From a bacterium (GTDB lineage Bacteria > CG2-30-53-67 > CG2-30-70-394), in assembly GCA_024278555.1 (NCBI GenBank), contig JAJRSX010000101.1, positions 1-47,966 of the forward strand: 47,966 nt of DNA. The letters are read 5' to 3'. Shown here piece by piece: positions 2 through 37,295 of this stretch. Each line of letters opens with the position of its first letter. Positions within the stretch are counted from its first letter, which is position 1. The notes beneath the pieces were generated by a model that ran no database searches, had not been told where the DNA came from, and was given only the letters and a program-made list of their open reading frames with translations. The translations under genes were made by a program, and so were the position numbers.

Positions 2-829
2 CCCCTCCACCTGCGCGTCGCCGGCGTCAGCGACCCGGGTCGCTTCCGCGGCGACAACCAGGACGCCATCGGCTGGATCGACCTCTCGCCGCCGGGTGCA
101 GTGGAGGAGAGCCACCTGGTCCTCCTCGCCGACGGCGCCGGCGGCCACGCCGGGGGGGCGGCGGCGAGCCGGCGGGCGGTGCAGTGGCTCCTCACCGAAG
201 CGCGGCGCGCCGCCCCGGCCGGCGGCGGCGCCCTGGTGGCGATGGTCCGCGAGGCGCACCGCCAGGTGGTCGCCCTGGCGCGCGAGATGGGCGCCGCCGG
301 CAACATGGGGACGACGGTGGTGGCCTGCCTGATCCGCGGCGCCGAGGCCCTCGTCGCCCACGTGGGCGACAGCCGCCTCTACCGGATCCACCACGGCGTC
401 TGCGGCCAGGTGACCCACGACCACTCCTACGTTTGGGAGCTCCTCCGCCACGGCGCCATCGCCCAGGAGGAGATCCTCCGCCACCCGCAGCGCGGGGTCA
501 TCACCCGCTGCCTCGGCTTCGGGCAGGAGGCGGAGCCGGAGCTCGACCCGCCGCTGCCCCTGGAGGCGGGCGACCGCCTCGTGCTGTGCTGCGACGGCCT
601 CATCGAGGTGGTGGCCGATGGGGACATCGGCGCCACCGCCCGCGACGCCGACCCGGAGACCGCGGCCGCCGCCCTGGTGGCCCTCGCCAACCGGCGCGGC
701 ACCCGCGACAACGTCTCGGTCGTGGTCGTCGCGGCGGAGACGGCGGAGACAACAAGCGAACCGCCACCCGCCGCCCCCGCCCCGCCGGACGACGACCCCG
801 AAGCCACCAACCTGATCGCCGGCCCCTGA
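2..829 (+). CDS. PP2C-family Ser/Thr protein phosphatase (PppA-like), 5' partial
   Basis: The reading frame is open from base 2, so the start lies outside the window. An internal GTG at 101 would remove the first metal-binding motif. Visible PP2C signatures in order are RGDNQDA, ADGAGGH, NMGTTVV, HVGDSRLYR, CCDGLIEV and DNVSVVVV; the conserved aspartates bind the two catalytic Mg/Mn ions. The family dephosphorylates Ser/Thr residues, and in T6SS loci PppA removes the phosphate that PpkA-type kinases place on FHA proteins. A kinase (1843-3603) and a TagH FHA protein (46075-47355) in this window support that role. The acidic, Pro-rich tail (last ~30 residues) is probably unstructured. The family call is firm; the T6SS role is inferred from context. 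Confidence 0.93.
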   Translation, partial: PLHLRVAGVSDPGRFRGDNQDAIGWIDLSPPGAVEESHLVLLADGAGGHAGGAAASRRAVQWLLTEARRAAPAGGGALVAMVREAHRQVVALAREMGAAGNMGTTVVACLIRGAEALVAHVGDSRLYRIHHGVCGQVTHDHSYVWELLRHGAIAQEEILRHPQRGVITRCLGFGQEAEPELDPPLPLEAGDRLVLCCDGLIEVVADGDIGATARDADPETAAAALVALANRRGTRDNVSVVVVAAETAETTSEPPPAAPAPPDDDPEATNLIAGP

Positions 830-1842: not shown

Positions 1843-3603
1843 TCACTTCACCGTCCGCCGCTTGCGCTTGATCACCGGCGTCTGCTTTTCGATCACCTCG
1901 CCCCAGCTCTTGCGGATTGCCTCCTTCTTCGCCACCGCCTTCGCCTTGTACTGCTTCGCCCCCTTGTGCTTCGGGTCACGGCGCAAGACGTCCTCCATGC
2001 GGGCGATGCACAGGTCGTACTGCCCCTTGTCGAAGCTCGCCACCCCCTGTTGGTAGATCTGCTCCACCTCCTTTTTCTCGCGGGCGAGAATGGTGTCACG
2101 CTCCTTGGGCTCCATGAGGACACCACGAAAACGGACCCGCCGGTCCTGCCTCAAGAGCGGATGGAGGTCGAGGCTCTGGCCGGCGGCGAGATCGATCGCC
2201 GACTCGTACGGGTAGTACCCCTTGCGGGTGAGGACGATCCGGTGGCTCCCCGCTACCACCGACTCCAGGGTGACCGGCGTCTTGCCCACCGCCGCGCCGT
2301 CGAGGGTGACCGCCGCGCCCGTCGGCTCGGAGGCGATCGAGAGGGTCGCCGGGGCCACCTCCAGGGTGTAGCTCCGTTGCACCTCCGCTCCGGCCGCCAC
2401 CGTCACCCCCTCCTCCACCGGCCGATAGCCGGCCAGGCGCACCGCCAGGCGGTAGTCCCCCGGCTCCAGGGAGAGGGTGACCGGCGTGGTGCCGCGCACC
2501 GCCCCGTCCACCTCCACGGTGGCCCCGGGCGGCACCGTCTCCACCACCACGTGCCCCACCACGGGCGCGGGCGGGGTCTGCGGCGTGGCCACCTGGGGCG
2601 CCGGCCGCGAGAGCCACCACACCGCCGCGGCCACCAGCACCGCCACCACCGCCACCGTCGCCGCCACCGTGGGCCACGGGCTACGACGGGCAGGGGGCGC
2701 GGTGGCGGCGACCGGCGGGGCCACCGCCTGCTCCAGGGCATCGATGAGCTCCTCGGCCCGCTGAAAACGGGCCTCGGGCTCCTTCTCCATCAGCCGCAAG
2801 ATAATCTGCTCGATCTCCGGCGGCAGGTCGTCGCGCAGGGCCGACGGCGGCTCAGGTGCCTTCTCGATCTGCTGCAAACAGACGCCGATCCCCGTCTCCG
2901 CCTGAAAGGGGACGCGGCCGGTAACCATCTCGTAGATGCACACTCCGAGGGAGTAGAGGTCGGAGCGGCCGTCGATCTTGTCGAGCTCGCCGCGCGCCTG
3001 CTCGGGAGAGAGGTAGTGGGGCGAGCCCACCGGCTCGCCCACCCGGGTCGCCCAGGCGGCGCGGGTGGCGTCCGCCGACTCGCTCGGCTTGGCGATCCCG
3101 AAGTCGGTGAGCTTCACCTGCCCCGACTCGGTGATCATGATGTTGTCCGGCTTCACGTCGCGGTGGACGATCCCCACCGCGTGGGCCTCGGCCAGCCCCC
3201 CGGCCACGGTGCGGGCGACGCGCACCGCATCGGCTACCGCCATCGCCCCGCCGCCGCGCAGGCGATCCCCGAGGGACTCGCCGCGAAGAAACTCCATGGC
3301 GATGTAGTAAACCCCCTGGTCCTCGCCGGCGGCGTAGATGCGCACCACCGCCGGGTGCTCCACCCGGGCCGCGAGGCGCGCCTCCTGCAGGAAGCGGGCG
3401 ACAAACCCCTTGTTCGCCGCCAGGTTGTCGGGCAGCACCTTGATCGCCACCGGCCGCTCCACGGAGAGCTGGGTGGCGGTATAGACCCGCCCCATGGCGC
3501 CGGCGCCGATAAAACCGTCGATGCGGAAATCGCCCCCCAGAACCCGCCCGAGGAGGGGATCCTCACCACCCGCGATCACCGTGCCGCCGTCGTCCGTCTC
3601 CAC
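1843..3603 (-). CDS. Transmembrane Ser/Thr protein kinase with two PEGA repeats (PpkA/PknB-like)
   Basis: Start GTG at 3603 is chosen because GGGGGAG lies about 8 bases upstream; the open frame runs further without a better site. Product about 586 aa. The Hanks kinase domain (~22-290) has the glycine loop GAGAMG (33-38), VAIK lysine (55), HRDVKPDN catalytic loop (147-154), DFG (167-169) and SPEQARG. A single membrane span lies at ~312-332, followed by two PEGA domains (~350-415 with VPPGATVEVDG and ~416-480 with EPTGAAVTLDG) and a basic, TPR-like helical tail. PEGA repeats are expected outside the membrane and may sense surface cues. With the PP2C and FHA proteins this makes a PpkA-PppA-Fha type T6SS control circuit (inference). 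Confidence 0.95.
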   Translation of the reverse strand: METDDGGTVIAGGEDPLLGRVLGGDFRIDGFIGAGAMGRVYTATQLSVERPVAIKVLPDNLAANKGFVARFLQEARLAARVEHPAVVRIYAAGEDQGVYYIAMEFLRGESLGDRLRGGGAMAVADAVRVARTVAGGLAEAHAVGIVHRDVKPDNIMITESGQVKLTDFGIAKPSESADATRAAWATRVGEPVGSPHYLSPEQARGELDKIDGRSDLYSLGVCIYEMVTGRVPFQAETGIGVCLQQIEKAPEPPSALRDDLPPEIEQIILRLMEKEPEARFQRAEELIDALEQAVAPPVAATAPPARRSPWPTVAATVAVVAVLVAAAVWWLSRPAPQVATPQTPPAPVVGHVVVETVPPGATVEVDGAVRGTTPVTLSLEPGDYRLAVRLAGYRPVEEGVTVAAGAEVQRSYTLEVAPATLSIASEPTGAAVTLDGAAVGKTPVTLESVVAGSHRIVLTRKGYYPYESAIDLAAGQSLDLHPLLRQDRRVRFRGVLMEPKERDTILAREKKEVEQIYQQGVASFDKGQYDLCIARMEDVLRRDPKHKGAKQYKAKAVAKKEAIRKSWGEVIEKQTPVIKRKRRTVK

Positions 3604-3706
3604 CAAAGTAGCTCCCCCGCGCGCCCTCTTTCGCCACCGTGCGCGGCGCAGCTTGATAGCAGAGGCGCGGGGTGGCGGCAAACGCCGCCACCCCAGGCGG
3701 GGGATG

Positions 3707-7791: not shown

Positions 7792-7947
7792 GACACTCCC
7801 TCCTTCGGCGCCGGCCCGCCTGCGCCGGTCCACCTCACAAGTGGCGATTGAGTAACCTCACCTACAAGGGTGCACACTGTCCGTGGCACCGCAAGAGAAA
7901 GAGAATCACGAACCCGCCGACCCCCTGCGCAGGAGGAGCATCCCGCC

Positions 7948-9240
<1,293 letters not shown>

Positions 9241-9243
9241 GCC

Positions 9244-9567
9244 ATGGAGCGGCTGCAGCGCCACCCGTGGCCGGGGAACATCCGCGAGCTACGCAACGTC
9301 CTCGCCCGCGCCCGTCTGATGAGCGACTCGCCGCGCCTCGACGCCGATGCGTTTGCCTTCCTCGACGAGGCCCCACCCACGGCGCCGGGGCTCGACCTCG
9401 GCCACCTCACCCTCCGGGAGGTCGAGCGGATGACCATCGCCGCCCACCTCGCCGCCCACCAGGGGCAGCGCCGCGCCGCCGCCGCGTCGCTGGGGATCGC
9501 CACCTCCACCCTGTACGAGAAGCTGAAGCGGTACCCGGAGCTGGGGAGCGACGGTGGTCGAGCGTAA
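9244..9567 (+). CDS. C-terminal part of the split sigma-54 activator (sensor-2 region and Fis-type HTH)
   Basis: It is in the same frame as 7948-9240, separated only by TAG and GCC. The first residues (MERLQRHPWPGNIRELRNVL) are the sensor-2 helix of NtrC-type activators, and the end (RRAAAASLGIATSTLYEKLKRY) is a Fis-family HTH_8 DNA-binding domain, so the two pieces together form one normal ~540-residue activator. Before the stop lies GGAGGTGA (9225-9232), 11 bases from ATG 9244, so re-initiation after termination is conceivable. Alternatives are a recent nonsense mutation (GAG or CAG to TAG; Glu or Gln would fit the linker), a sequencing error, or suppression. The last codons overlap the YkgJ-type gene. 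Confidence 0.8.
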   Translation: MERLQRHPWPGNIRELRNVLARARLMSDSPRLDADAFAFLDEAPPTAPGLDLGHLTLREVERMTIAAHLAAHQGQRRAAAASLGIATSTLYEKLKRYPELGSDGGRA

Positions 9568-10414
9568 CGCCGGAGCACCGACGGACGAGGCGAGCGACGG
9601 CCACCTCCCCTTCGAGCTACCCACCCCCCACGGGACGGTTCGCGGCGACCTACCCCTGCCACCGCAGGCGGTGCGCCTGTCGGAGGTGGTGGTGCCCCTG
9701 CTGACCCTCGACTCCGCCCTGGTGGACCAGGCGGTGCGCCATGCCGCCGCCGGCCACACCCCATGCACCTGTGGCCCCGGGTGCGGAACCTGCTGCCGCC
9801 AGCTCGTCCCCCTCTCCGCCCCCGAGGCCTTCGCCCTCACCGCGACCATGCGCCACCTGTCGGGCGAGCAGCGCCAGCGGCTACGGCCGCGCTTCACCGC
9901 CATCGGCGCCACCCTGGCGCGCTACCCGGACCTCGCGCGCCGCATCTTCACGGTCGAGACGTCGGACGCGGCGGTGAACGCCACCGCCCTCGCCTACTTC
10001 GACCTCGGCCTCCCATGTCCCTTCCTGGAGGCGGAGAGCTGCGCCATCCACCGCTTCCGCCCTGCCGCCTGCCGTGAGTTCAACGTCGCCTCCGACCCGG
10101 CGTGGTGCGCCACCCCGGCTGCCGCCACGACCGTCGCCATCCCCGCGCCCCTGCGCCTCTCGTCACTCCTCGCCCAGGCCCACGCCCACCTCTACCGCTT
10201 GCCTCAACCCCTCCTCGTCCCCCTGTCGCTCGCCCCGTCGTGGTGCGCCGACCACCCGGAGCTCGACCGCCTCGCCTGGGACCCGGCGACGCTGATGCGC
10301 GACCTCTTGGGGGCGATGGCGCGGGTGATGAAGATCAGCGAGGGATCGCCACCGCCATCTCCACCTCCAGACGGCCGGGGAGAAGCGGCTCAGGGATCCG
10401 AGTCCGAAGGGTGA
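9554..10414 (+). CDS. YkgJ-family cysteine-cluster protein
   Basis: GTG start at 9554 lies inside the end of the activator gene (stop 9565-9567), with GGGGAG upstream, so translation is probably coupled. About 286 aa. The signature cysteines are CTCGPGCGTCCRQ (~residues 71-83) and later CPFLEAESCAIHRFRPAACREF, the pattern of the YkgJ (CxxCxxxCC) family thought to bind Zn or Fe-S. A further Cys occurs in AWCATP. The biochemical role of the family is not settled. The 3' end overlaps the convergent gene ending at 10335 by 80 bp; the Pro/Gly/Ser-rich tail beyond residue ~260 is encoded largely in that overlap. Confidence 0.85.
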   Translation: MVERNAGAPTDEASDGHLPFELPTPHGTVRGDLPLPPQAVRLSEVVVPLLTLDSALVDQAVRHAAAGHTPCTCGPGCGTCCRQLVPLSAPEAFALTATMRHLSGEQRQRLRPRFTAIGATLARYPDLARRIFTVETSDAAVNATALAYFDLGLPCPFLEAESCAIHRFRPAACREFNVASDPAWCATPAAATTVAIPAPLRLSSLLAQAHAHLYRLPQPLLVPLSLAPSWCADHPELDRLAWDPATLMRDLLGAMARVMKISEGSPPPSPPPDGRGEAAQGSESEG

Positions 10415-12026
10415 GAATGCGGCGGTCCGGCCGATCCGGGTGCGGCCCGACCTCCGCCGCCACCGACTCCACCTCAAGCCCGAGCAACGCCGCCAGGGGC
10501 GTGGCCACCTCGGCGCCGACCTCCGCGTCGGTGGCACCAAGCGGCAGGGTGGCGACGATCTCTTGCAAGGCGCGGGCGAGTTGCCCCACCACGAGCTGGT
10601 AACCCAGGGTGGCGCGGGCCGCTGCCTCGCGGCACGCCGCGGAGCCGGCATAATGAGGCGGACGCACGACGGTCGGCGTCGGTCCGATGACCACCCGGTC
10701 GCGTCCCGCCTCCGGCAGCAGCGGCAGGAGGCCGTGGCTGGTGAGGACCATGGCGGCCTCGGCATCCACGGCAAGGGCGGTGGCGCGCGGACGCGCCGCC
10801 CCGGCTACCAGGGCCGGGGCCGTCAACGAGCCCTCCAGACGGCCCGCCCACCCGTGGGCCCCAAAGCTCTCGCACGCGGCGGTCGCGACCCACCAGGGAG
10901 ACGCGCCCCACAGGGGCGAGGTGTTCTCGTCGTAGGCGAGGTTGCGGCCCCCCGGCGCCTCCGCGCCGTAGGCCCCACGCAACAGGGGCGGGTTGCACGC
11001 GGCCACCAGCCAGCGGCTCGCCTCGCGCTCCCGAAGGGCGCGCCACTTGCCGTAGGCGTTGGAGCTGAGATGAAGGTCGAGAGAGGGGATGGCGGCCACC
11101 TCGGCCCAATCGCCGCACCCGAAAAAGGCTGGAGCCACCCCGACCACCACCGGCGCCTGGAGCGCCTCCCCCGCCTCCGCGAGGGCGGCGAGTATCGCCA
11201 CCTCGCGGTCGATGCATCCGAACTCGTGGCCCACCACTGCTAGGCCAACCTCCTCGCCGGTCCCCGCGAGCCACGGCGCCACCACATCAGACGCCATGCG
11301 CTCCGCCGCCTCGTCGTGGGAGGCGGAAACCACGGCCACGCGCACCCGTGCGTCCGCAGAGACATGGCCGAGGAGGAGGGCGAGGCCGCGCCATGCCGCC
11401 TCCACCGCACGCAAGGTCGGGTCCGAGAAGACCGCATCGAGCTGGCCGGAGATGCGGCGGTCGAGGTCCGCACACAGGCGCTCCACCGCCCCGGCATCCC
11501 CAACGTGGCCGCGAGGCCCGAGAAGGTTTCCGATGAGCGTGCCCAGGGGCGTCGGCGCCGTGGACCGCCGTTCTCCCACGGCGACCCCCTCGGGGAGGTC
11601 CACCATGTCGAGGATCGAGTCGACTCCACTCACCGCCACCGGCGCCGGTGCAGCCGGCGACAGGGGCGGCGCCACCTCGGCCGCGGCCGCCGCGCCGGCC
11701 CGATCGCGGAACTGCTCCACCGTGAGGCGCCCCGCCGCAAGCTCACCCGCGTGGCGGCGCAGTGCCACCACCTCGCCGAGCCCCGGAACGGCCGCCGCCA
11801 CCGCCTCGGGCCGAAGGGAACGGAGGCCGGTCAGGGGCAGCTCCACCGGAAGCCATGCGTCCCCGCCACCGAGACGATCCTCCACCTGCAAATGGAGGGT
11901 TCCGGCGAGGCGCGCCATCGCCTCGTCGAGCCCCATGCGGTCCACCGCCACCACCCCGCCCTCCGCCTCCGGGGCAAAGGGGGCGACGACCACGATCCGC
12001 AAAGAGGGAGGACGAAGGGACTTCAT
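10335..12026 (-). CDS. Single-chain TssB-TssC sheath-like fusion paralogue
   Basis: 563 aa. Residues ~8-115 align by eye with TssB at 36650-37147: RIVVVAPFA with KFMMIGDYT, VDRMGLDEAMARL with VDKDNFDEVM, then a beta-rich stretch and a helix matching LKDFEPESIVKQVPELNKL. After a Pro/Ala linker, residues ~160-563 align with TssC at 35087-36574: LDAVFSDPTLRAVEAAWRGL, a central APVVVGVAPAFFG (TssC APCIASAGPKFFG), LREREASRWLV and YDENTSPLWGASPWWVATA. Canonical separate tssB and tssC exist elsewhere in the window, so this is an extra, strongly diverged copy in one chain. It sits at the end of a PAAR/DUF2169 unit. It may cap or nucleate a sheath or sit in the baseplate (inference). Its 3' end overlaps the YkgJ gene. 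Confidence 0.85.
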   Translation of the reverse strand: MKSLRPPSLRIVVVAPFAPEAEGGVVAVDRMGLDEAMARLAGTLHLQVEDRLGGGDAWLPVELPLTGLRSLRPEAVAAAVPGLGEVVALRRHAGELAAGRLTVEQFRDRAGAAAAAEVAPPLSPAAPAPVAVSGVDSILDMVDLPEGVAVGERRSTAPTPLGTLIGNLLGPRGHVGDAGAVERLCADLDRRISGQLDAVFSDPTLRAVEAAWRGLALLLGHVSADARVRVAVVSASHDEAAERMASDVVAPWLAGTGEEVGLAVVGHEFGCIDREVAILAALAEAGEALQAPVVVGVAPAFFGCGDWAEVAAIPSLDLHLSSNAYGKWRALREREASRWLVAACNPPLLRGAYGAEAPGGRNLAYDENTSPLWGASPWWVATAACESFGAHGWAGRLEGSLTAPALVAGAARPRATALAVDAEAAMVLTSHGLLPLLPEAGRDRVVIGPTPTVVRPPHYAGSAACREAAARATLGYQLVVGQLARALQEIVATLPLGATDAEVGAEVATPLAALLGLEVESVAAEVGPHPDRPDRRILTLRTRIPEPLLPGRLEVEMAVAIPR

Positions 12027-12065: not shown

Positions 12066-13100
12066 TCAACCGCCCAGGCGGACCGTGACCCCGTCGATCT
12101 CCGGCACCTCCAGATCCGCGACGCTCACCACCCCGCGCCAGGTGAGACAAACGATGCGGTCGTCCGGGCGTACGACGCAGGTGTCGAGGTGCATCTCGAC
12201 CGCCTCCTCGCCCGGACCGGCGGCGGGCGGCTGGCCGTCACTCCCCGCCACCCCCGGGGTCTCCGAGGCGAAGCGGTGAACGACCGCCTGCGGGGCGACG
12301 CCGGGGAGGCGGAAGGAGAGGCGGCCGTCGGCGGTGAGGCGGAGGAGCTCGATCTCCTCGTCGCCGGCGAGGTACCCGTCGAACTGGAGCCACGGGTAGG
12401 CGCTGTTGTGGTAATCGAAGCGGAAGTCCTCCGGCGGCAGGGGCGAGCGCTCGGTGCGCCACGTCTCGTCGAAGGTGCCGAGGGCGGCGATGCGCGAGGC
12501 GGCGGAGCGCGGTACGACGCCGAAGCCCACCGGCTCCGGGTGGTCGTTCCAACTCTGCACCGGCCGCTCCAGGGACTCGATGTTCGCCAGCGGCGCCCCC
12601 TTCGCATCCTGCCTCTTGCCCACCACCGCGAACCCCTTACCGATGGGGTTTTCGTCACAGACACCCCCGGTGGGGGAGACCCCGCCGAAGGCGAGGTGGG
12701 CGCCGAGCTCCATCTCGGCGAAGGGGGTCGGCTTGCTCGACCGTGACGCCTTCTCCCACACCCGGTCGCCGAAGACCCGCACGCCGCAGCGCCGCTCCCC
12801 CACCCGCACCCCCGCCTCCACGTACGGGGCGGGCGCCCCGCCCGGCGCGTGGACCGAGCCGGCGATAATCACGTCGGCACGCGGCTTAAAGGGGGCGGTG
12901 TCCGCCTCCCAGCGCGCCACCCCGGTCTCGCCCAGGGGCTCGTCGGCGTAGGCGACCGGCTCCTGCGTCGCCGCCGGCGCAACCTCGCCGTCACCAATCT
13001 CGTAGGTCGCCTTCACCACCACCGTCGCCACTGGTCGCATCTCCGGCCCGACGCCGGGCACCACGGCGACCTCGAAGGGGGTGTCATTTTCGATGTTCAT
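12066..13100 (-). CDS. DUF2169-family T6SS accessory protein
   Basis: 344 aa, start ATG 13100 after AAGGAG-like sequence. The opening MNIENDTPFEVAVVPGVGPEMRPVATVVVKATYEI and the motifs DVIIAGSVHAPGG, VRVFGDRVW, FGGVSPTGG, NPIGKGF and LPG are diagnostic of DUF2169. Such proteins are mostly found beside PAAR or Rhs-type effectors in T6SS loci, where they are thought to act as cytosolic loading factors or chaperones between effector and spike. Here it lies 37 bp downstream of the unknown protein and upstream of the TssBC-like fusion in one apparent minus-strand operon starting with the PAAR-like gene. The family is clear; the exact client is not known, but the 13138-13968 product is the obvious candidate. 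Confidence 0.9.
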   Translation of the reverse strand: MNIENDTPFEVAVVPGVGPEMRPVATVVVKATYEIGDGEVAPAATQEPVAYADEPLGETGVARWEADTAPFKPRADVIIAGSVHAPGGAPAPYVEAGVRVGERRCGVRVFGDRVWEKASRSSKPTPFAEMELGAHLAFGGVSPTGGVCDENPIGKGFAVVGKRQDAKGAPLANIESLERPVQSWNDHPEPVGFGVVPRSAASRIAALGTFDETWRTERSPLPPEDFRFDYHNSAYPWLQFDGYLAGDEEIELLRLTADGRLSFRLPGVAPQAVVHRFASETPGVAGSDGQPPAAGPGEEAVEMHLDTCVVRPDDRIVCLTWRGVVSVADLEVPEIDGVTVRLGG

Positions 13101-13137: not shown

Positions 13138-13968
13138 TCAGGTCAGCACCCCGGGTGTCGGCACCGAGGTGCCGCCCACCACCGGCCCCACCGGGACAAA
13201 CGGCGGGGCGAAGGTCGGGATGGGGCCGGTGCCGAGGACGTTCTGCACCATGGTCGTCGCCTTGAAGAGGGTAAAGGTGGTGTTGAACGCCTGCGCCACG
13301 GCATCGAAGAGCTCCTTGTGGTGCAGCGCCTCGGCGTCGCCGAGGTTGGCGATCATCTGCGCCTTGAGGGTGGCGGGGGAGAGCATCGCCTCACCCGGCG
13401 AGGAGAAGGCGATGAGCGGCATGGGGACGCACGGCATCGGCGGCGCCATGGGACCGGGAAAGGCGGCGAAGGCGGGATACATGAGCTGACCGGCAAGCCC
13501 CATCTGCCACTGCTGCCAGGCGGTGGAGACCACCTGCGCGATCGCCTTCGAATACTTCATGAGCTGCGGCGTGTTCACCGGCGCCGAGGCGAGGATGAAG
13601 GGCATCAAGGGCGGTCCCACCACATTGCCCGGCGCCACCACCCCCACCGGCCCGGTGATGACCATGCCGGCGATGGAGGTGAGCTTCATCCACTTATCGA
13701 TCGCGTCGCAGAGGGCGCCACAAATTTTTTCGATGAAATCGGCAAACCCCTTGCCGATCTCCTTCTGCGTCTCGACGTGGTACTTGTTCGGGCTCTTGGC
13801 GAGGAAGACCGACGCGGCGTCCGGCGGGTTCACCAGCTCGCTCATGGCAAACGCCTTGGCGTACTGCTCGCCCGTGGGCGTCTTCCACTTCACCGGCAGG
13901 CCGATCGCCTTCGCCTTGAAGTTGAGCTTCGCCATCTCGGCGAGCTGAGATTTTTGCGGCGCGGGCAT
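13138..13968 (-). CDS. Unknown protein of the PAAR/DUF2169 unit, candidate spike-linked effector
   Basis: Start ATG at 13968 chosen; the open frame extends upstream to 14127 only as the antiframe of the PAAR-like gene. About 276 aa. No catalytic motif is recognised. The N terminus is Lys-rich and helical; residues ~95-145 are hydrophobic (LTSIAGMVITGPVGVVAPG, GPPLMPFILASAPV); a Pro/Met-rich stretch follows (FPGPMAPPMPCVPMPLIAFSS), then a helical region and a Pro/Gly tail. The gap to the PAAR-like gene is 5 bp and to DUF2169 37 bp, indicating co-expression. The hydrophobic core could mean membrane insertion. It may instead be a structural extension of the spike. Function not assigned. Confidence 0.8.
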   Translation of the reverse strand: MPAPQKSQLAEMAKLNFKAKAIGLPVKWKTPTGEQYAKAFAMSELVNPPDAASVFLAKSPNKYHVETQKEIGKGFADFIEKICGALCDAIDKWMKLTSIAGMVITGPVGVVAPGNVVGPPLMPFILASAPVNTPQLMKYSKAIAQVVSTAWQQWQMGLAGQLMYPAFAAFPGPMAPPMPCVPMPLIAFSSPGEAMLSPATLKAQMIANLGDAEALHHKELFDAVAQAFNTTFTLFKATTMVQNVLGTGPIPTFAPPFVPVGPVVGGTSVPTPGVLT

Positions 13969-13973
13969 CGTCT

Positions 13974-14297
13974 CTAGCCGCCGACGATCACGTCGGTGCT
14001 CCCCTGGACCAGCATGCCGGGACCACCGCAGTGCTTGTCCTGATCGCCCATACGGTGGGCCGGCTTGTTGTTGATCAGCACCGTGGCCGAACCGCCCACC
14101 GCCTCCCAGGTGTTGGGGCCGCAGCACGCCGTGTGGATCCCCTTATCGCCCTTGCGCAGGGCCGGCCGGTTATTCACCAGGACGTCGGGCGACGCGGAGA
14201 TCGCCGGCCCGGTGACCGCCGGGTGCGGGCAGAGCGGACAGCCATGCGCATCCGCGGGTGCGAGCGACTTATCACCGAGCCTCCCTTGTCCGGGCAT
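13974..14297 (-). CDS. PAAR-like (DUF4150-type) spike tip protein
   Basis: ATG 14297 follows GGAGGAG; 107 aa. The sequence begins MPGQGRLGDKSLAPADAHGCP and has the PAAR-like spacing CPLCPHPAVTGPAI, SPDVLVNNRPALRKGDKGIH, CCGPNTW, GSATVLINNKPAHRMGDQDKHCGGPG and STDVIVGG, ending after the last repeat with no C-terminal extension. PAAR proteins cap the VgrG trimer, sharpen the spike and carry effectors; His/Cys residues bind a tip metal ion. Being a bare tip, it should carry cargo non-covalently, consistent with the adjacent DUF2169 gene. It is the first gene of a four-gene minus-strand unit ending with the TssBC fusion. Confidence 0.92.
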   Translation of the reverse strand: MPGQGRLGDKSLAPADAHGCPLCPHPAVTGPAISASPDVLVNNRPALRKGDKGIHTACCGPNTWEAVGGSATVLINNKPAHRMGDQDKHCGGPGMLVQGSTDVIVGG

Positions 14298-14326
14298 CCT
14301 CGACTCCTCCATCCAACAGGGTGAAA

Positions 14327-14535: not shown

Positions 14536-15219
14536 TCACGGGGCATGCCGGGGGCGGCCTTTTGGCCGCAGGGTCGAGGTGATACCGAGCTCCTCTGCAA
14601 CCCTTACCCGCCACTCCTCAGCGCCGAAGGGGGCACCCCGCACAACCGAGCGCCGCACCACCGCAAGCTCCGCCTCGTCCTGTGGAGTCGCGAGCAGATG
14701 CTCCCAACGCCGTGGCATGGGCACGGGCCATGGGCTCAGCATGGAACGGGCCTCCTCATCGCCATGGCGACGCTGCCAGAGGCTCCCCCATCGCCAGTCG
14801 GAGGCGGCCGTGACGAGGTTGGCACGCCACGCATTGCCCTCCACGTAGCGGGCAACCCTCAAGAAGTGATCATCCTCGGCCACAGGGAATGACTTGAAAC
14901 GCCCCTGGTAGATGTGGCCCGTGCCCTCTGTGTGATGATGTGCATGAAGACGCTGGGTGTGGGTCAGCGTGAGCCAGTGAAGATGGGTGGAAAGCTCGCG
15001 GTCATCCCTCGGCCAGAGGAGGAGGTGCCAATGGTTCGGCATGAGGCAAAACGCCAGAAGGCGGATCGGATGTCGCGCCTGGGCTTCGACCATCACCCGC
15101 AAGAATGCGGCATAGTCGCCTGGCTTCTCGAAAAGCGACCGCCGCCCCACCCCGCGATTCAACACGTGGTAAACCAAGCCTCCCCGTACATTTCGTGCCA
15201 TCCGTGGCATCACAACCAT
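14536..15219 (-). CDS. REP-associated tyrosine transposase (RAYT, Y1_Tnp family)
   Basis: About 227 aa. Motifs of the HUH single-strand transposase fold are visible: GGLVYHVLNRG near the N terminus, LLAFCLMPNHWHLLLWP with the HxH metal-binding pair (~residues 62-64), and YIQGRFKS-type GHIYQGRFKSFPV (~103-115) followed by YVEGNAWRANLV, with the catalytic Tyr expected in this region. The Trp-rich DWRWGSLWQRR segment is typical of RAYTs. These enzymes cleave and join REP palindromes as single strands. ATG 15219 is used; a downstream ATG (MARNVRGG) is also plausible. The C-terminal ~60 residues are Arg-rich. It appears intact. Confidence 0.92.
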   Translation of the reverse strand: MVVMPRMARNVRGGLVYHVLNRGVGRRSLFEKPGDYAAFLRVMVEAQARHPIRLLAFCLMPNHWHLLLWPRDDRELSTHLHWLTLTHTQRLHAHHHTEGTGHIYQGRFKSFPVAEDDHFLRVARYVEGNAWRANLVTAASDWRWGSLWQRRHGDEEARSMLSPWPVPMPRRWEHLLATPQDEAELAVVRRSVVRGAPFGAEEWRVRVAEELGITSTLRPKGRPRHAP

Positions 15220-15391: not shown

Positions 15392-16186
15392 ATGGCGAAG
15401 AAGCGGATCTGGATCACCTGGCTGCCGCCGGAAGAGGAGGGGGCGCCGGCGCCCCAAGAGGTGGTGGTGGCGCTACAGAAGTACGGCCACGCCACCGGCG
15501 GCGCACCGTGGATCGACAAGCTCGAACAGATGGCGTGGACCTCCACCGGCCTCACCCTGCTGGATACAGAGGCCGCCGACGTGTGGCTCATCGCCGGCCG
15601 TAAGGCAGACTGGGAGCGACCCTCGGTGCGCACCGGCCTGGCGCTCGCCGCGGCCATGGCCCAGGGGATCCGCGGCCACCGCTTTCCCATTGTCGCTGTG
15701 GGGCTCGATTTTCTGCCCGATGCCGAGACCCTCCCCACCCCCCTGGCTGGTGCCGTCTGTCTCGACGGCAGCAGGCCCGCGTGGGGGATCAAGATCGGGC
15801 CGGGGCTGAAGCGGTTCGCCGGCGCAGCCGCCCCCGAGTACCGCTTCGCGGTCACCGCCGAGCCGCACATCGGCCTGTGGTTGGAGGTGGGGCCGCGGGT
15901 CGGCGAGTGGGCCGGCGCCATGTTCGGGGTGAGCGGCGGCGGCGCCACCCTCACCCAGCAGGCGGTGGGGCCGAAGGAGGAGCTGCCGTCGAAGACGGTG
16001 CTCGAGTACCCGATGAACGGGATCGAGCTCACCGCCGGGGGCCGGAGCTACACCGCCTGTGCGGCGAACAACCGGATCGACGAATCGACCTCTTACTACG
16101 TGAAGATCGACGGCACCCCGGAGCGCATCTTGTTCGGCGCCCACCCGGACAGTGACGGCGAGGTGTACGTCCTCAGCTTGGTGTAA
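15392..16186 (+). CDS. Unknown protein, lone plus-strand gene in the T6SS island
   Basis: ATG 15392 (MAKKRIWITWLPPEEEG) is chosen over an upstream start at 15350 because it follows GGCGGGAG and looks like a natural N terminus. About 264 aa, no signal peptide or membrane span. Residues ~55-115 resemble an alpha/beta nucleotide-type fold (TEAADVWLIAGRKADW, HRFPIVAVGLDFLPD); the C-terminal half is beta-rich (YPMNGIELTAGG, ESTSYYVKIDG, DGEVYVLSLV). No family is recognised. It is bounded by the RAYT right palindrome upstream and converges with the lipoprotein gene ending at 16386. Confidence 0.75.
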   Translation: MAKKRIWITWLPPEEEGAPAPQEVVVALQKYGHATGGAPWIDKLEQMAWTSTGLTLLDTEAADVWLIAGRKADWERPSVRTGLALAAAMAQGIRGHRFPIVAVGLDFLPDAETLPTPLAGAVCLDGSRPAWGIKIGPGLKRFAGAAAPEYRFAVTAEPHIGLWLEVGPRVGEWAGAMFGVSGGGATLTQQAVGPKEELPSKTVLEYPMNGIELTAGGRSYTACAANNRIDESTSYYVKIDGTPERILFGAHPDSDGEVYVLSLV

Positions 16187-17480: not shown

Positions 17481-17484
17481 GCCG

Positions 17485-18519: not shown

Positions 18520-18688
18520 CTAGGAGTCTGTCGGACTTATGCGATCGTTGCGAGGGAAAGCGGGCTCGAGTCCGGATTGCGACCCGTTCGAGCGCCACGC
18601 GGGCCTATGTAACGAAGAACGGGGCGCGATCCGGGCCGAGATCCGCGAATCAAGCAGTAGATCGTGCATAAGTCCGACAGACTCCTAG
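18520..18688. mobile_element. 161-bp MITE with 19-bp terminal inverted repeats and CTAG target duplication
   Basis: 18524-18542 (GAGTCTGTCGGACTTATGC) is the exact reverse complement of 18666-18684. Each end is flanked by CTAG (18520-18523 and 18685-18688), a 4-bp duplication of the kind made by IS5-group or IS1182-type elements. The interior is too short for a transposase and has no convincing gene. The right CTAG supplies the TAG stop of the 18685-21219 gene; the left CTAG is part of the AGGAGG of the next gene. Confidence 0.88.
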
Positions 18689-21219: not shown

Positions 21220-21277
21220 CGATCGTCGCTCAAAGCCCATCGACCCCCATCCTTACGCACGCGACACCAGGCGACAC

Positions 21278-24639: not shown

Positions 24640-25374
24640 TCATGCCCCATGTACCTCCTCCAGCTTGTCGCGCGTCTCGCCGTCGATCTCCCCGGTGACT
24701 GTAAGCCCGTGATCCTCCTGGAAGGTTTTTACCGCTGCCACCAGCTCGGGAGAGAGGCTGTCGTCTGGATCCCCACACTCGAAGCCGAGGTTGGCCAGCC
24801 GCTCCTTGACGCCGCTGACCTCGGTGATCGGGTCCAGATGGCCGAGGCGTACGGGGAGCTCAAGCTCATCCGGTGTCCCGGGTTCCAGGATCAACTTCCC
24901 CTTCTTGGCATCTGGAGGGATGTCGCACTCCACGAAGCCGTCCGCATCGGTGCGCCCCTCGATGAGCTGCCCATCGATCTTCAAGACGTACGGAACATCG
25001 CCACGCGGCCGCTCCTCCCCCCCATCCGATTCGATCACCGGATCTTCCGTGTCGGAATCCTTGCCGTCCGTCTGTGGCGGTACGGCCTCGGGCTCCTCGT
25101 CCTCCTCCGAAGGCTCGACGACCCGCAACCGAAACTTCGCGGGAACCCCCTTTTTCCGAAAGCGGTAGCGCTGCCCTGCGGCGGCTGACTCCTCTTTGGC
25201 GCATTTGTCCGGAACGACGACAGTGTCGCCGGGCAGCAGCAAGTTGGGCTCTCCCCGCCTCTTCTTCAGATCCGCATTGGCGGAGTCATCCCAGATCGTC
25301 TCCGGGAAGAGCCCGTACTTGGCGGCGATGCTGGAGATGCACTCGCCCTGTTTGACCTGATGCTCGGTCGCCAT
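24640..25374 (-). CDS. LysM and peptidoglycan-binding protein of the vgrG operon
   Basis: ATG 25374 overlaps the VgrG stop as TGATG, so the two are coupled; a longer frame to 25425 is not favoured. 244 aa. An N-terminal LysM (~1-55; MATEHQVKQGECISSIAAKYGL, PNLLLPGDTVVVP) is followed by an acidic linker (~85-125), a transthyretin-like beta unit (~125-170; VLKIDGQLIEGRTDADGFVECDIP) and a C-terminal peptidoglycan_binding_1 domain (~185-243; VKERLANLGFECGDPDDSLSPELVAAVKTFQEDHGL). LysM proteins behind vgrG are frequent in T6SS loci and may act as adaptors or target peptidoglycan. No catalytic motif is seen. Confidence 0.88.
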   Translation of the reverse strand: MATEHQVKQGECISSIAAKYGLFPETIWDDSANADLKKRRGEPNLLLPGDTVVVPDKCAKEESAAAGQRYRFRKKGVPAKFRLRVVEPSEEDEEPEAVPPQTDGKDSDTEDPVIESDGGEERPRGDVPYVLKIDGQLIEGRTDADGFVECDIPPDAKKGKLILEPGTPDELELPVRLGHLDPITEVSGVKERLANLGFECGDPDDSLSPELVAAVKTFQEDHGLTVTGEIDGETRDKLEEVHGA

Positions 25375-27695
25375 CACGCCTTCTCCCATGCGTCCTTGTC
25401 CAGGTCCGGGAAGGTGATCTTGCACTCGGCGCCCTTCTCCACGCCGGTCACCCTGAGCACGCCCTCCTTGTTGGTGCGGCCGGTGTAGACCTTGCCGTCG
25501 GGGAGGGTGACCATCACCTTCTCACCCGGTACCGGCTCGTCCGCCTCGTCGATGAGCTCCACCTCCAGCCACGATTTTTCCTCCTCGTCCTCCTTCGGGT
25601 CCTTGTGGGTCGGGGCAGAGAGGGCCTTCACCACCAGGGGGTCCATCTGCGTCTGCTTGCGGCTGGCGGTGATCTCCTTGCCGGCGCCGACGGAGGCGGC
25701 GATTGCCGCCTCCAGCGGTTTGGCGGCCGGCTGCGCCTTGCCCATCTTGCCCTTGCCCGCCGAGCCACCGGAGTTGAGCTTGATCATCGGCCCCTTGATG
25801 GTGACGCCGCTGGGATCAATCTTCACGAACGAGCCGCCCACCTTGAGGGTGAGCTCCTTCATCCCCTCGATCACCACCCCCATCGCCTTCAGGTAGAGGT
25901 CACCGCCCACCTCCTGGCCGTGGTTGGTGCTGTACTTCTCGATGACGTCGCCGGAGACGGTGATCGAGCGGTCGCCGCCCACCTCAATGGCCTGGTTCTT
26001 CCCGACCTTCAACGAGTGGTCACGGGTGATCTCGGTGATCTGATCGCGGTCCACCAGGGAGTGGTCGTCGCGCTCGACCTTCTGCACCTTGTCGCGCGCC
26101 ACCACCAGGTGGCGGTCATTGCCCACGTGCTCGCGGCGGTCGTTCTTCACCCGGAAGTCGAGGTCCTTCTCGGCGTGGAAGAGGAGCTGCTCGTCGCCCT
26201 TCTTGTCCTCGAAGGAGATCTCGTTGGAGCCGCCGCCCCCCTTGGAGCTGCTGCTCTTGATGGTGGAGCGGGTCTTCTCCTTGGGCAGCTCGTACGGCGG
26301 CATCTGGTCGGCGTTGTAGACGCGGCCGGTGATGATCGGCCGGTCCGGGTCGCCCTCCAGGAAGTCGACGATGACCTCCTGGCCGATGCGCGGCAGGAAC
26401 ACCATCCCGTAGCCACCGCCGGCCCACCCCTGGCTCACCCGCACCCAGCACGACGCCTTCTCGTCGTACCCGCCGGTGCGGTCCCAGTGGAACTGGACCT
26501 TCACCCGGCCGTACTTGTCGGTGTGGATCTCCTCGCCCGAGGGGCCGACGACGATGGCGGTCTGACCGCCGGAGATGGTGGGGTGCGGCGTGGTGCGCGG
26601 CGGCCGGAAGGGGCTCTTCTTGGGGATGCACACCACGTCGTTCTCGTAGACCGCCTGGTCGCCGGCGCCACTCGCGGTGGCCTCCGCCCCCACCCCCTCG
26701 GGCTGCGAGCCGTAGTGCTGCACCGCGGTGACCACGTAGTCCTGGTTGAAGGCGGTGCGGTCGTGACCGTCGAGGGTGAAGGTGTAGCCGCTGATGAGGC
26801 GACGGCAGTCGCTGTGGGCGGTGGCCTGCTCCCGCGTCGCCTGCTCCTCCTCCAGGCGCACCTTCGCCACCCCCTTGCCGCGGCCCGCCTCACCGAAGCC
26901 CCCCGGGTAGTCGTAGAGCTCCAGCTCCGGGTGCTCCCTCCCCCTCTGCTCCGCGGTCAGATCCACGGAGGGCTTGATGGGGTTGAAGTCGCGCAGGACC
27001 ACCGCGCCGGGGCGGATCTCCTGGGTCATGCGGAAGGTGGAGAAGAACTCCTCGGAGGTGGAGCCGAAGGCGGCGTCGCGCAGGGAGACCTTGGTGGGCT
27101 TGGCGATCGCCGGATGGACGTCGGCTCCGTCACCGAGGGTGAGGAGGTGGGCCGTCTCGGTGTGCTCGAAGAAGAAAAAGATCCCCTCCTCCTCCATGAG
27201 GCGGGCGATGAAGTCCATGTCCGACTCGCGGTACTGAACGCAATACTCGCGCTTCGGGTAGCTGCCACGCAGGGCGAGCTTGTAGGCGTCGCTCGGCAGC
27301 CCGGCGTCGTCGAGGACCTGCTTGACGATCTCCGGGACCGACCTCTCCTGGAAGATGCGGCAGCTCTGCCGCTGGGTCAGGAGCCAGACCGCCGGCACCA
27401 GCTCCGCCCGGTAGTAGGTGTACTCGGTGCCGCGCCCCGCCTGCTCGATGCGCGAGACGATGCCGTTGACGTAACGCGCCTCCGGCTCCCCCTTGATGGT
27501 GAGCACCGCCGGCTGGCCGAGGACCGTGGCGAAGTCGAGCTCGCTCTCCTTGCTCGCCAGCTCCAGGGTGAAGTGGAAGAGCTGCGAGATCTCCTCCCGG
27601 CCGTGGAAGCGCACCACCCGCAGGAGGTCCGAGGCGAGCTTGCCCACGCGAAAGATCAGGTCCGCCGCGGCGGCGCGGTTACGGATGACGGCCAT
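25374..27695 (-). CDS. vgrG: VgrG spike protein with C-terminal transthyretin-like extension (TssI)
   Basis: 773 aa. The gp27-like part (~1-380) has the usual phrases LFHFTLELAS, GIVSRIEQAGRGTEYTYYRAELVP, RIFQERSVPEIVKQVL, REYCVQYRESDMDFIARLMEEEGIFFFFEH. The OB-fold/gp5 part (~385-490) has GRVKVQFHWDR, CWVRVSQGWAGGGYGMVFLPRIGQEVIVDFLEGDPDRPIITGRVYN. A gp5-like beta-helix follows (~530-640; VGNDRHLVVARDK, VGGDRSITVSGD). The last ~65 residues are a transthyretin-like domain (WLEVELIDEADEPVPGEKVM). VgrG trimerises as the spike on the Hcp tube; the tail is a probable effector dock. It starts 6 bp after the GxxExxY-like gene and is coupled to the LysM gene. Confidence 0.97.
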   Translation of the reverse strand: MAVIRNRAAAADLIFRVGKLASDLLRVVRFHGREEISQLFHFTLELASKESELDFATVLGQPAVLTIKGEPEARYVNGIVSRIEQAGRGTEYTYYRAELVPAVWLLTQRQSCRIFQERSVPEIVKQVLDDAGLPSDAYKLALRGSYPKREYCVQYRESDMDFIARLMEEEGIFFFFEHTETAHLLTLGDGADVHPAIAKPTKVSLRDAAFGSTSEEFFSTFRMTQEIRPGAVVLRDFNPIKPSVDLTAEQRGREHPELELYDYPGGFGEAGRGKGVAKVRLEEEQATREQATAHSDCRRLISGYTFTLDGHDRTAFNQDYVVTAVQHYGSQPEGVGAEATASGAGDQAVYENDVVCIPKKSPFRPPRTTPHPTISGGQTAIVVGPSGEEIHTDKYGRVKVQFHWDRTGGYDEKASCWVRVSQGWAGGGYGMVFLPRIGQEVIVDFLEGDPDRPIITGRVYNADQMPPYELPKEKTRSTIKSSSSKGGGGSNEISFEDKKGDEQLLFHAEKDLDFRVKNDRREHVGNDRHLVVARDKVQKVERDDHSLVDRDQITEITRDHSLKVGKNQAIEVGGDRSITVSGDVIEKYSTNHGQEVGGDLYLKAMGVVIEGMKELTLKVGGSFVKIDPSGVTIKGPMIKLNSGGSAGKGKMGKAQPAAKPLEAAIAASVGAGKEITASRKQTQMDPLVVKALSAPTHKDPKEDEEEKSWLEVELIDEADEPVPGEKVMVTLPDGKVYTGRTNKEGVLRVTGVEKGAECKITFPDLDKDAWEKA

Positions 27696-35086: not shown

Positions 35087-36574
35087 CTACTGCTTGTCGA
35101 GCTTGCCGACCAAAGAGAGGGTGAAGAAGGCACCCATGTACTTGAAGTGGGGGCGCACCTGGAGGTCGACCTTGTACCAGCCCGGATCCCCCTCCACGTC
35201 GGAGACGGTGATCTGCGCCTGGCGCAGGGGGCGCCGGCCGCGCACCCCCGGATCGACCACATCTTGGTCGGAGACGTACTGACGGATCCAGTTATTGAGC
35301 TCGCGCTCCAGGTCGACCCGCTCCTTCCACGAGCCGAGCTGCTCCCGCTGGAGCACTTTGATGTAGTGGGCGAGCCGGTTGATGATCATCGTGTACGGGA
35401 GCTGGGTGCCGAGCTTGTAGTTCGCCTCCGCCTCCTTGCCCTCCTTGCTGGTGCCGAAGTACTTCGGCTTCTGGCAGGAGTTGGCGGAGAAGAAGCAGGC
35501 GTTGTCGCTCCCCTTGCGCATCGCCAGGGCGATGAACCCCTCCTCGGCGAGCTCGAACTCACGCCGCTCGGAGATCAGGACCTCGGTGGGGATCTTCGTC
35601 TGGATCTCGCCCATTGCCTCGAACTGGTGCAGGGGCAGGTCGTCCACCGTGCCGCCGGACTGGGGGCCGATGATGTTCGGGCACCAGCGGAACTTGGCGA
35701 AGCTGTCGGAGAGCCGGGTGGCGAAGGCGAAAGAGGCGTTGCCCCACAGGTAGCTGTGGTGGTCGCCGGTGACCTGCTCGTTGTAGTTGAACGCCTTGAC
35801 CGGGTTGTTCTCCTCGTCGTACGGCAACCGGAGGAGGAAGCGCGGCAGGGTGAGGGCCATGTAGCGCGAATCCTCCGACTCACGAAAGGAGTTCCACTTC
35901 GCGTACTGCGGCCCCTCGAAGATGGAGTGCAGGTCTTTCAGATTCGGCAGCTTGAGGAAGTCGTCCTCACCGAAGAACTTCGGACCGGCGGAGGCGATGC
36001 ACGGGGCGTGCGCCATCGCGCCGACGCTGGACATCGACTGCATGAGGGCGATATCCGGGGCGCTCGGAGAGAGCTCGTAGTTGGCGACCATCGCCCCCAC
36101 GGGCTCGCCGCCGAACTGACCGTACTCGGCGGTGTAGACCTGCTTGTAGAGGCCCGATTTGGTGATGTCCGGGGCGTCCTCGAAGTCCTCCAAGAGCTCC
36201 TCCTTGGAGACAGAGAGGAGCTCCATCTTGATGTTCTCGCGGAAGTTGGTGCGGTCGATGGCGAACTTCAGGCCACGCCACGCACTCTCCAGCCGCTGCA
36301 CGTCCGGGTGGTGGAGGATCGCATCCACCTGGGAGGAGAGCTGCTGATCGATCTCCGCGATCATCTCGTTCACCAGCTTATGGTGAACCTTCTCCCCCGC
36401 ATGCGCCGGGGTGACGAGCTCGGCGATGAACCGGCTCACCCCCTGCTTGGCCACCGTGTACCCCTCATCCGTCGGGGCGATCTTGGTCTCCTGAAGGATC
36501 TGGTCGAGGAGGTTGCCCTCCGCCGCGGTGGTCTCTGCCGCCGCCTCTGCCTGGGTCTGCTGCTCTTCCGCCAT
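35087..36574 (-). CDS. tssC: T6SS sheath large subunit TssC (VipB)
   Basis: ATG 36574 follows GAGGAGAGAG; 495 aa, normal. The N-terminal LLDQILQETKIAP helix is the region recognised by ClpV in the family. Core signatures: ILHHPDVQRLESAWRGLKF, APCIASAGPKFFG, SFRESEDSRYMALTLPRFLLRLPYD, YLWGNASFAFATRLSDSFAKFRWCPNIIGPQSGG and the C-terminal PHFKYMGAFFTLSLVGKLDK. It forms the contractile sheath with TssB, encoded 75 bp upstream. A fused, diverged paralogue lies at 10335-12026. Confidence 0.98.
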   Translation of the reverse strand: MAEEQQTQAEAAAETTAAEGNLLDQILQETKIAPTDEGYTVAKQGVSRFIAELVTPAHAGEKVHHKLVNEMIAEIDQQLSSQVDAILHHPDVQRLESAWRGLKFAIDRTNFRENIKMELLSVSKEELLEDFEDAPDITKSGLYKQVYTAEYGQFGGEPVGAMVANYELSPSAPDIALMQSMSSVGAMAHAPCIASAGPKFFGEDDFLKLPNLKDLHSIFEGPQYAKWNSFRESEDSRYMALTLPRFLLRLPYDEENNPVKAFNYNEQVTGDHHSYLWGNASFAFATRLSDSFAKFRWCPNIIGPQSGGTVDDLPLHQFEAMGEIQTKIPTEVLISERREFELAEEGFIALAMRKGSDNACFFSANSCQKPKYFGTSKEGKEAEANYKLGTQLPYTMIINRLAHYIKVLQREQLGSWKERVDLERELNNWIRQYVSDQDVVDPGVRGRRPLRQAQITVSDVEGDPGWYKVDLQVRPHFKYMGAFFTLSLVGKLDKQ

Positions 36575-36649: not shown

Positions 36650-37147
36650 TCACCCCTCGCCCTCGCCGCCGATCCCAAGCTCCTTGATGAGCTGGGCGCG
36701 CTGCCCCTCATCCTCGAGCATCGCCTGGATCTTCTTGCGGAAGGCGGGGAGGTTGCCGAGCGGCCCCTTGAGGGCGGTGAGGGCGTCGCGCAGCTCCAGG
36801 AGCTTGTTGAGCTCCGGCACCTGCTTGACGATCGACTCGGGCTCGAAGTCCTTCAGGGTGTCGAACTTCAGGCTCACCGACATCTGCGCCCCCTCCTCAC
36901 CGGAGAGGCGGTCGTCGACGTTGGCGTCCAGCGCCAGATTCTGGCTGCGCATGACTTCGTCGAAGTTGTCCTTGTCGACCTTGATCGCCTTGCGCTCCTC
37001 CAGGGGGGTGGAATCGGCGCGCAGGGTGTAGTCACCGATCATCATGAACTTGAGGGGCAGCTCCACCTCCTCCTGGGCGCCACCGGTGGCCGGCCTGTAG
37101 GTGATGTTCACCCGCTCCTTCGGTGCGACGGAACCTTCCTTTGCCAT
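36650..37147 (-). CDS. tssB: T6SS sheath small subunit TssB (VipA)
   Basis: ATG 37147 after AGGAGAG; a longer frame to 37258 is rejected. 165 aa, normal. Starts MAKEGSVAPKERVNITY and has the diagnostic VELPLKFMMIGDYTLR, KVDKDNFDEVM, LKDFEPESIVKQVPELNKLLELRDALTALKGPLGN. TssB pairs with TssC in the sheath. Between it and tssA (stop 37296) is a 148-bp gap containing a GCTACG-ACAAG-CGTAGC hairpin, so tssBC may be a separate transcription unit from the tagH-tssA genes. Confidence 0.97.
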   Translation of the reverse strand: MAKEGSVAPKERVNITYRPATGGAQEEVELPLKFMMIGDYTLRADSTPLEERKAIKVDKDNFDEVMRSQNLALDANVDDRLSGEEGAQMSVSLKFDTLKDFEPESIVKQVPELNKLLELRDALTALKGPLGNLPAFRKKIQAMLEDEGQRAQLIKELGIGGEGEG

Positions 37148-37295
37148 GGTGCTCTCCTCTCGCTCTCGGCGTGGTTGGGATTGGGTTGATAGCAGCAAGC
37201 TACGACAAGCGTAGCGTGGTCGCGAAACCAGGAAGCCCGCGGCGGCATGACCTACCACGACGCGAATCTACACTCATCTTTGTTCTCTCATCGAC

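Follow-up and report, generated by a model that had tools for sequence, protein, structure and literature searches.

The type VI secretion system (T6SS) is a protein-injection machine with a two-part tail sheath, which is usually described as a uniform polymer of TssB and TssC (VipA and VipB). The handshake arms of the sheath, namely the N-terminal strand of TssB and the C-terminal strand of TssC, are given to neighbouring subunits, and the C-terminal strands of TssC form the socket (PMC5807055). Two linkers run from each subunit to the adjacent ring on the baseplate side, and TssE has been proposed as the acceptor of the linkers of the first ring (PMC5813253). In V. cholerae, insertion of at least two residues into the VipA linker abolishes contraction while sheaths still assemble (PMC5797969); in the N3 mutant the VipB linker is the only tie between a subunit and the previous ring, and the sheath does not contract (PMC5813253). 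It is not clear how contraction travels from one ring to the next (PMC5797969) or what role a second TssC protein (TssC40) has in Agrobacterium (PMC3702570; PMC5813230), and the composition of the distal sheath end is unresolved (PMC5813253).

Here we describe a protein in which a TssB-like and a TssC-like part are joined in one chain and which is encoded, in addition to a canonical TssB and TssC, in a bacterial DNA stretch of 47,966 nucleotides (the window, by which we mean the whole of the analysed stretch).

The TssB–TssC fusion and the canonical pair

The fusion gene (10335..12026, minus strand) has an ATG start codon with GGAG just 5′ of it and encodes 563 amino acids. It was assigned to what we call type B on the basis of Pfam VipA and VipB matches, hhalign and AlphaFold2/Foldseek. 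Residues 24–108 match Pfam T6SS_VipA (PF05591) with an E-value of 1.4e-9 and 38.4 bits (curated cut-off 24), and two stretches match Pfam VipB (PF05943), the better of which spans residues 257–401 (E 9.1e-33, 114 bits, cut-off 27). A profile of ten type-B relatives aligned with canonical TssB at E 8.5e-15 and with canonical TssC at E 1.9e-37 in hhalign, and the core TssC signature (EAAWRGL...) is present. The NCBIfam TssC model TIGR03355 scored 110.6 bits (E 8.5e-32) and did not reach its equivalog cut-off of 271.5, and the TssB model TIGR03358 (E 6e-9) stayed far under its own. Because both scores lie so far below the equivalog cut-offs, the fusion is, as judged from its sequence, homologous to the sheath subunits and an orthologue of neither TssB nor TssC.

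An AlphaFold2 model built with ten homologues (pLDDT 71, pTM 0.67) shows four parts: a TssB-like core that has no N-terminal linker strand (residues about 8–112), a disordered linker (residues 118–158) carrying the ClpV-type helix VDSILDM (residues 135–141), a TssC-like middle (residues about 177–470), and a C-terminal gpW/gp25-like domain of two helices and three strands (residues 474–562). When the model was compared with the PDB by Foldseek, ranks 1 to 9 were all T6SS TssC sheaths (best E 6e-15), and T6SS sheaths ranked far above eCIS and phage sheaths. TssB (5urw_1A) was placed over the N-terminal part at rank 23 with 99 columns and an rmsd of 2.6 Å, at an E-value of just 0.024. Whole-chain TM-scores were 0.4–0.6, so the relative placement of the domains is unreliable. 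The initial annotation of this DNA had proposed a diverged TssB and TssC fused in one chain, and Pfam, hhalign and the predicted structure agree on this, both folds being found in the model. Its observation that the ClpV-recognised helix is kept but internal also holds, and the helix is conserved in all branches of the family.

The ends of the protein set it apart from an ordinary protomer. The TssB core of type-B proteins starts within about ten residues of the protein start, and since at most 13 in-frame codons are open 5′ of the start of the window gene, it encodes no TssB-type arm. The arm is likewise missing from the other type-B proteins, the one exception being the basal L061, which has a longer N-terminus. 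The earlier suggestion that the N-terminal ~115 residues follow TssB holds for the VipA match and the fold but not for the linker strand. At the other end, Pfam VipB_2 (PF18945) matched neither the window fusion nor the fusions of 16 genomes, although the AlphaFold2 model predicts a gpW/gp25-like fold there. The pooled C-terminal domains of type-B and Myxococcaceae proteins matched canonical TssC C-termini weakly (E 2e-4, hhalign probability 44%). A second kind of fusion, type A, has an extended N-terminus, which carries a GDFSG-type motif, and the protein stops short of the gpW/gp25 domain; hhalign found nothing between type-A and canonical TssC C-termini.

The normal tssB and tssC that the initial annotation had placed in the window are indeed there. 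Canonical TssC (35087..36574, minus strand) matches Pfam VipB (2.3e-131) and VipB_2 (gpW/gp25; 4.9e-43), and is 26% identical to the fusion. Canonical TssB, complete with its N-terminal linker, was recognised by alignment at approximately 36650..37258 (minus strand), the true start lying inside the open reading frame at MAKEGSVAPKERVNITY... Apart from this pair and the fusion, a genome-wide search found no sheath genes, and the canonical TssC was the single further TssC that it returned. The genome assembly is fragmented (211 contigs), and the composition of the window agrees with that of five other contigs.

The canonical pair belongs to the only T6SS cluster found in the genome. Pfam identifies its vgrG (25374..27695, minus strand; Phage_GPD 2e-97 and Gp5 domains), clpV, tssF, tssE, hcp, tssC, tssA, tssM, tssK, tssJ and an FHA protein, and tssG (31161–32171) and tssL (43350–44045) were named by gene order and cross-similarity instead. 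A search of a congeneric genome and other genomes of this small phylum (G000 against G001–G007) gave no sheath match, and the T6SS may therefore have been acquired laterally in this lineage. Two adjoining and visibly similar genes for proteins of about 340–364 residues, neither with a Pfam match, lie at 16386–18510 (minus strand), beside a gene for an OmpA/peptidoglycan-binding protein (18685–21240).

Gene neighbourhood and distribution of the fusions

The fusion is the last gene of a minus-strand operon that reads PAAR, a gene for an unknown 275-residue protein, DUF2169 and fusion, in which 8, 37 and 39 bp separate successive genes, and the proposal that it is encoded with a PAAR/DUF2169 unit was correct. 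The first gene (13974..14312, minus strand) encodes a 112-residue spike tip protein with a PAAR motif (PF05488, 1.1e-15); it had been annotated as DUF4150, for which the corresponding family (PF13665) gave just 0.02. The 275-residue product (13138..13965, minus strand), whose start was placed at MPAPQKSQ inside an open reading frame at 13138–14127, matches no Pfam family at E 0.1. The DUF2169 protein (12066..13100, minus strand; Pfam 5.9e-78), a TvpA-like PAAR chaperone, is encoded 39 bp upstream of the fusion. The operon adjoins a gene for an IS200-like/REP-associated transposase (14536–15219, minus strand).

We searched 297 genomes from a single phylum, which matching named records suggest is Desulfobacterota. 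Sheath matches occurred in 30 of them, and the 16 fusion carriers scored first comprised 11 with type B and five with type A. Further type-B genes came from a scan of named genomes, in Desulfobacterales, Syntrophaceae, Desulfobulbus and a gammaproteobacterial MAG. The type-B set comprises 21 loci, mostly from Desulfobacterota and with the MAG contributing one (L061). The type-A fusions (L053–L057) sit between clpV and vgrG. A third branch, type M, consists of proteins of about 550–590 residues with both Pfam domains, encoded in genomes of 9–14 Mb that we took as Myxococcaceae; they occupy a stand-alone locus common to several genomes, near an aldehyde-dehydrogenase-like gene (L105–L114). In L106 and L114 a vgrG gene adjoins the type-M fusion.

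In a tree of the TssC core, all fusions split from canonical TssC with 100% UFBoot support; types B and M group with L061 at 94%, and type A forms a separate clade. The fusions thus appear to share descent apart from canonical TssC, a topology with long branches in which long-branch attraction is possible. Among close type-B genes dN/dS is 0.08–0.25, which indicates purifying selection. No description of a TssB–TssC fusion was found in the open-access journal literature searched, where the nearest precedent is the second TssC of Agrobacterium, which is unfused; the family is widespread and apparently undescribed so far.

Exactly one canonical TssC with VipB_2 is present in 15 of the 16 fusion genomes. 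The exception, G217, has a fusion and no canonical TssC, but its contig begins just before tssE, and the missing gene is likely an assembly loss. In G133 the locus L051 is the canonical TssC, and the fusion lies on another contig (C19), where it is cut by the contig start. G162 appears to carry canonical TssBC, a type-A fusion (L053) and a type-B gene cut by the contig end (L115); types A and B may thus coexist in one genome, although an assembly contamination of 8% weakens the case. Because a single canonical TssC accompanies the fusion both in the window genome and in these 15 genomes, the fusion is an addition to the sheath genes and not a replacement. For the same reason, we rejected the idea that the fusion is the sheath of another, complete T6SS.

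Linkage to the spike genes is not a constant feature of the family. DUF2169 lies within 10 kb of six of the 21 type-B loci, and so does PAAR. The six DUF2169-linked loci include the deepest type-B branches (the window, L042 and L077), so spike linkage may be ancestral; in L042, which was inspected closely, the genes for VgrG, DUF2169/TvpAB, TvpB, DUF3540/TvpC and PAAR follow one another in the manner of Tvp class III. Among T6SS genomes, DUF2169 is found in 4 of 11 type-B carriers versus 7 of 19 others (Fisher p=1), and whole clades have the fusion in genomes that contain no DUF2169. The co-occurrence of fusion and DUF2169 that the initial annotation had suggested looking for is therefore lacking, a tight dependence of the fusion on DUF2169 was rejected, and its proposal of a sheath dedicated to this spike is not borne out.

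Steadier companions of type B are a protein that we call c10 and a module of FHA, PP2C phosphatase and kinase genes. Counted within 10 kb of the 21 loci, several of which are incomplete so that the figures are lower bounds, FHA occurs 15 times, PP2C and kinase 12 times each and c10 10 times. The FHA gene is usually immediately upstream of the fusion; FHA, PP2C and kinase are all missing beside L042, L060, L077 and L045, and L062 is without phosphatase and kinase. The window has counterparts of all three: a gene for FHA and a sigma-54 activator (7870..9567, plus strand; Pfam FHA and Sigma54_activat, in two open reading frames), a PP2C-type phosphatase (2..829, plus strand; PP2C_2 8.7e-11) and a Ser/Thr kinase with PEGA domains (1843..3681, minus strand; Pkinase 1.8e-48). 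The FHA/sigma-54 gene is interrupted at 9238–9240 by an in-frame TAG, which has the AAA core on one side and the WPGNIREL region on the other; the frame resumes beyond it, and the TAG may reflect a sequencing error, decay or readthrough.

The c10 protein of the window has 264 residues (15392..16186, plus strand) and belongs to a conserved family of ~258-residue proteins. With the type-B gene at the contig end of G162 counted, this family is present in 11 of 12 type-B carriers and in 3 of 18 T6SS genomes that lack type B (p 9e-5), an association inflated by shared ancestry as six carriers come from one family. The co-occurrence extends to genomes in which c10 and the fusion are not adjacent. 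The family has no credible Pfam match, and AlphaFold2 (pLDDT 86) predicts an alpha/beta N-terminal half that is weakly TIR-like and a beta-sandwich-like C-terminal half. Foldseek returned the TIR-APAZ of SPARTA (9.7e-5, but with an rmsd of 30 Å) and adhesin beta-sandwiches, which are too weak to name the protein.

A possible role at the end of the sheath

We propose, at somewhat short of an even chance, that the fusion is an arm-less sheath protomer that forms a specialised end ring, probably on the baseplate side, and gates contraction. This single-chain protomer retains the ClpV-type helix, the core in which TssB and TssC interlock, and a diverged socket domain, C-terminal strand included. 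It lacks the TssB linker, the arm that normally ties a subunit to the ring on its baseplate side and hands contraction on. It would serve alongside the canonical sheath in a single T6SS, as a ring at one tail end, most likely the end that faces the baseplate and spike; there it could accept canonical protomers above while a single linker, in place of two, held it from below. Such a one-linker hold could let the ring gate or delay contraction.

We infer the incorporation of the fusion into the tail, its position and its gating role. By comparison with the V. cholerae mutants, a protomer with a socket and no VipA linker should let the sheath assemble above it without transmitting the pull, which would suit a gate near the baseplate. 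Type A, being without the socket, would suit a sheath terminator, and this mirror-image loss suggests end pieces rather than ordinary protomers. A broader scheme, in which type B (socket, no arm) and type A (extension, no socket) are the specialised first and last rings of one end-piece family that determines where the sheath begins and ends and when it may contract, with type B wired to the FHA/PP2C/kinase module, strikes us as rather unlikely.

Gene context supports the end ring, since the fusions adjoin PAAR/DUF2169 (the window and five further loci), vgrG, or FHA/PP2C/kinase genes. It is weakened by (i) the location of many type-B genes and all sampled Myxococcaceae genes away from the tss core genes, (ii) the poor match of the C-terminal domain to canonical TssC described above, and (iii) the longer, not missing, linker of published non-contractile sheaths. 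Of the roles suggested in the initial annotation, an end ring or adaptor is still the leading idea, and the spike-dedicated sheath is a weak one.

The FHA/PP2C/kinase neighbours fit equally well with a soluble, sheath-derived regulator, that is, a TssBC-mimicking monomer that would attach to ClpV or to the ends of a growing sheath and so repress T6SS activity or set its timing, under the control of these signalling proteins. The frequency of the module around type-B loci, the retention of the ClpV-type helix in every branch and the stand-alone loci of Myxococcaceae all speak for such a protein, which we regard as a serious though unlikely alternative: the module is missing or incomplete at the loci named above, and a capping inhibitor needs neither the whole core nor the tube-facing helix nor the C-terminal domain, yet all of these are kept. 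The 39-bp spacing to DUF2169, the six loci with DUF2169 and PAAR, deepest branches included, and the full Tvp row of L042 would instead fit a component of the chaperone complex, or a dedicated ring, for the PAAR/DUF2169 (Tvp) spike. The even distribution of DUF2169 among T6SS genomes and the clades that have the fusion and no DUF2169 make this improbable.

Random incorporation as a minor subunit of the ordinary sheath, at no particular place, would account for the conserved core and has a precedent in A. tumefaciens, where TssC40 makes two TssC proteins in one T6SS (PMC3702570). We consider it quite improbable, as the missing linker would break the handshake at any point of insertion and the fusion has diverged strongly from its own TssC. 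That the gene is a decaying duplicate or an assembly artefact, as the great divergence of the family and the fragmented window genome might suggest, is hardly credible given an open frame conserved across phyla; for the family, the low dN/dS and the matching composition led us to reject a pseudogene or artefact.

Comparison with known sheath systems

Like TssB/TssC (VipA/VipB), the fusion has both folds, a ClpV-type helix, the EAAWRGL... signature and a helix-strand C-terminal domain. It differs from them in being one chain without the TssB linker, in being PF18945-negative and below the equivalog scores, and in occurring in addition to the canonical pair. This last property recalls Agrobacterium TssC40 (ImpC/ImpD), an extra, non-redundant TssC-like protein in a single T6SS (PMC3702570; PMC5813230), which, unlike the fusion, is not joined to TssB. 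An arrangement resembling TssC40/TssC41 was seen in Pararoseomonas, where a second full-length TssC directly follows tssC (L073, 10332–11885); unlike the fusions, it has full VipB and VipB_2 matches and groups with canonical TssC.

The window fusion and five further type-B genes adjoin DUF2169 and PAAR genes, whose products are parts of the Tvp accessory complexes (DUF2169 TvpA, TvpB, TvpC and PAAR). The consulted passages of the paper on these complexes (PMC13373197) report no sheath-like component, and the fusion, unlike them, also occurs in genomes without DUF2169. One-chain sheaths are familiar from phages, and particles with several sheath proteins from eCIS (Afp/PVC; PMC8894135), whereas the T6SS of the window is otherwise standard, with TssJLM and ClpV.

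As a conserved and natural arm-less one-chain protomer, the fusion is a concrete candidate for the role of end ring or contraction gate, and this candidate is present in Myxococcaceae and many Desulfobacterota. A further comparison is with the VipA-N2/N3 non-contractile mutants of V. cholerae, in which the N-terminal linker of VipA is likewise altered (PMC5813253; PMC5797969); those, however, are laboratory insertions in TssB, whereas the fusion represents a natural loss in a fused paralogue.
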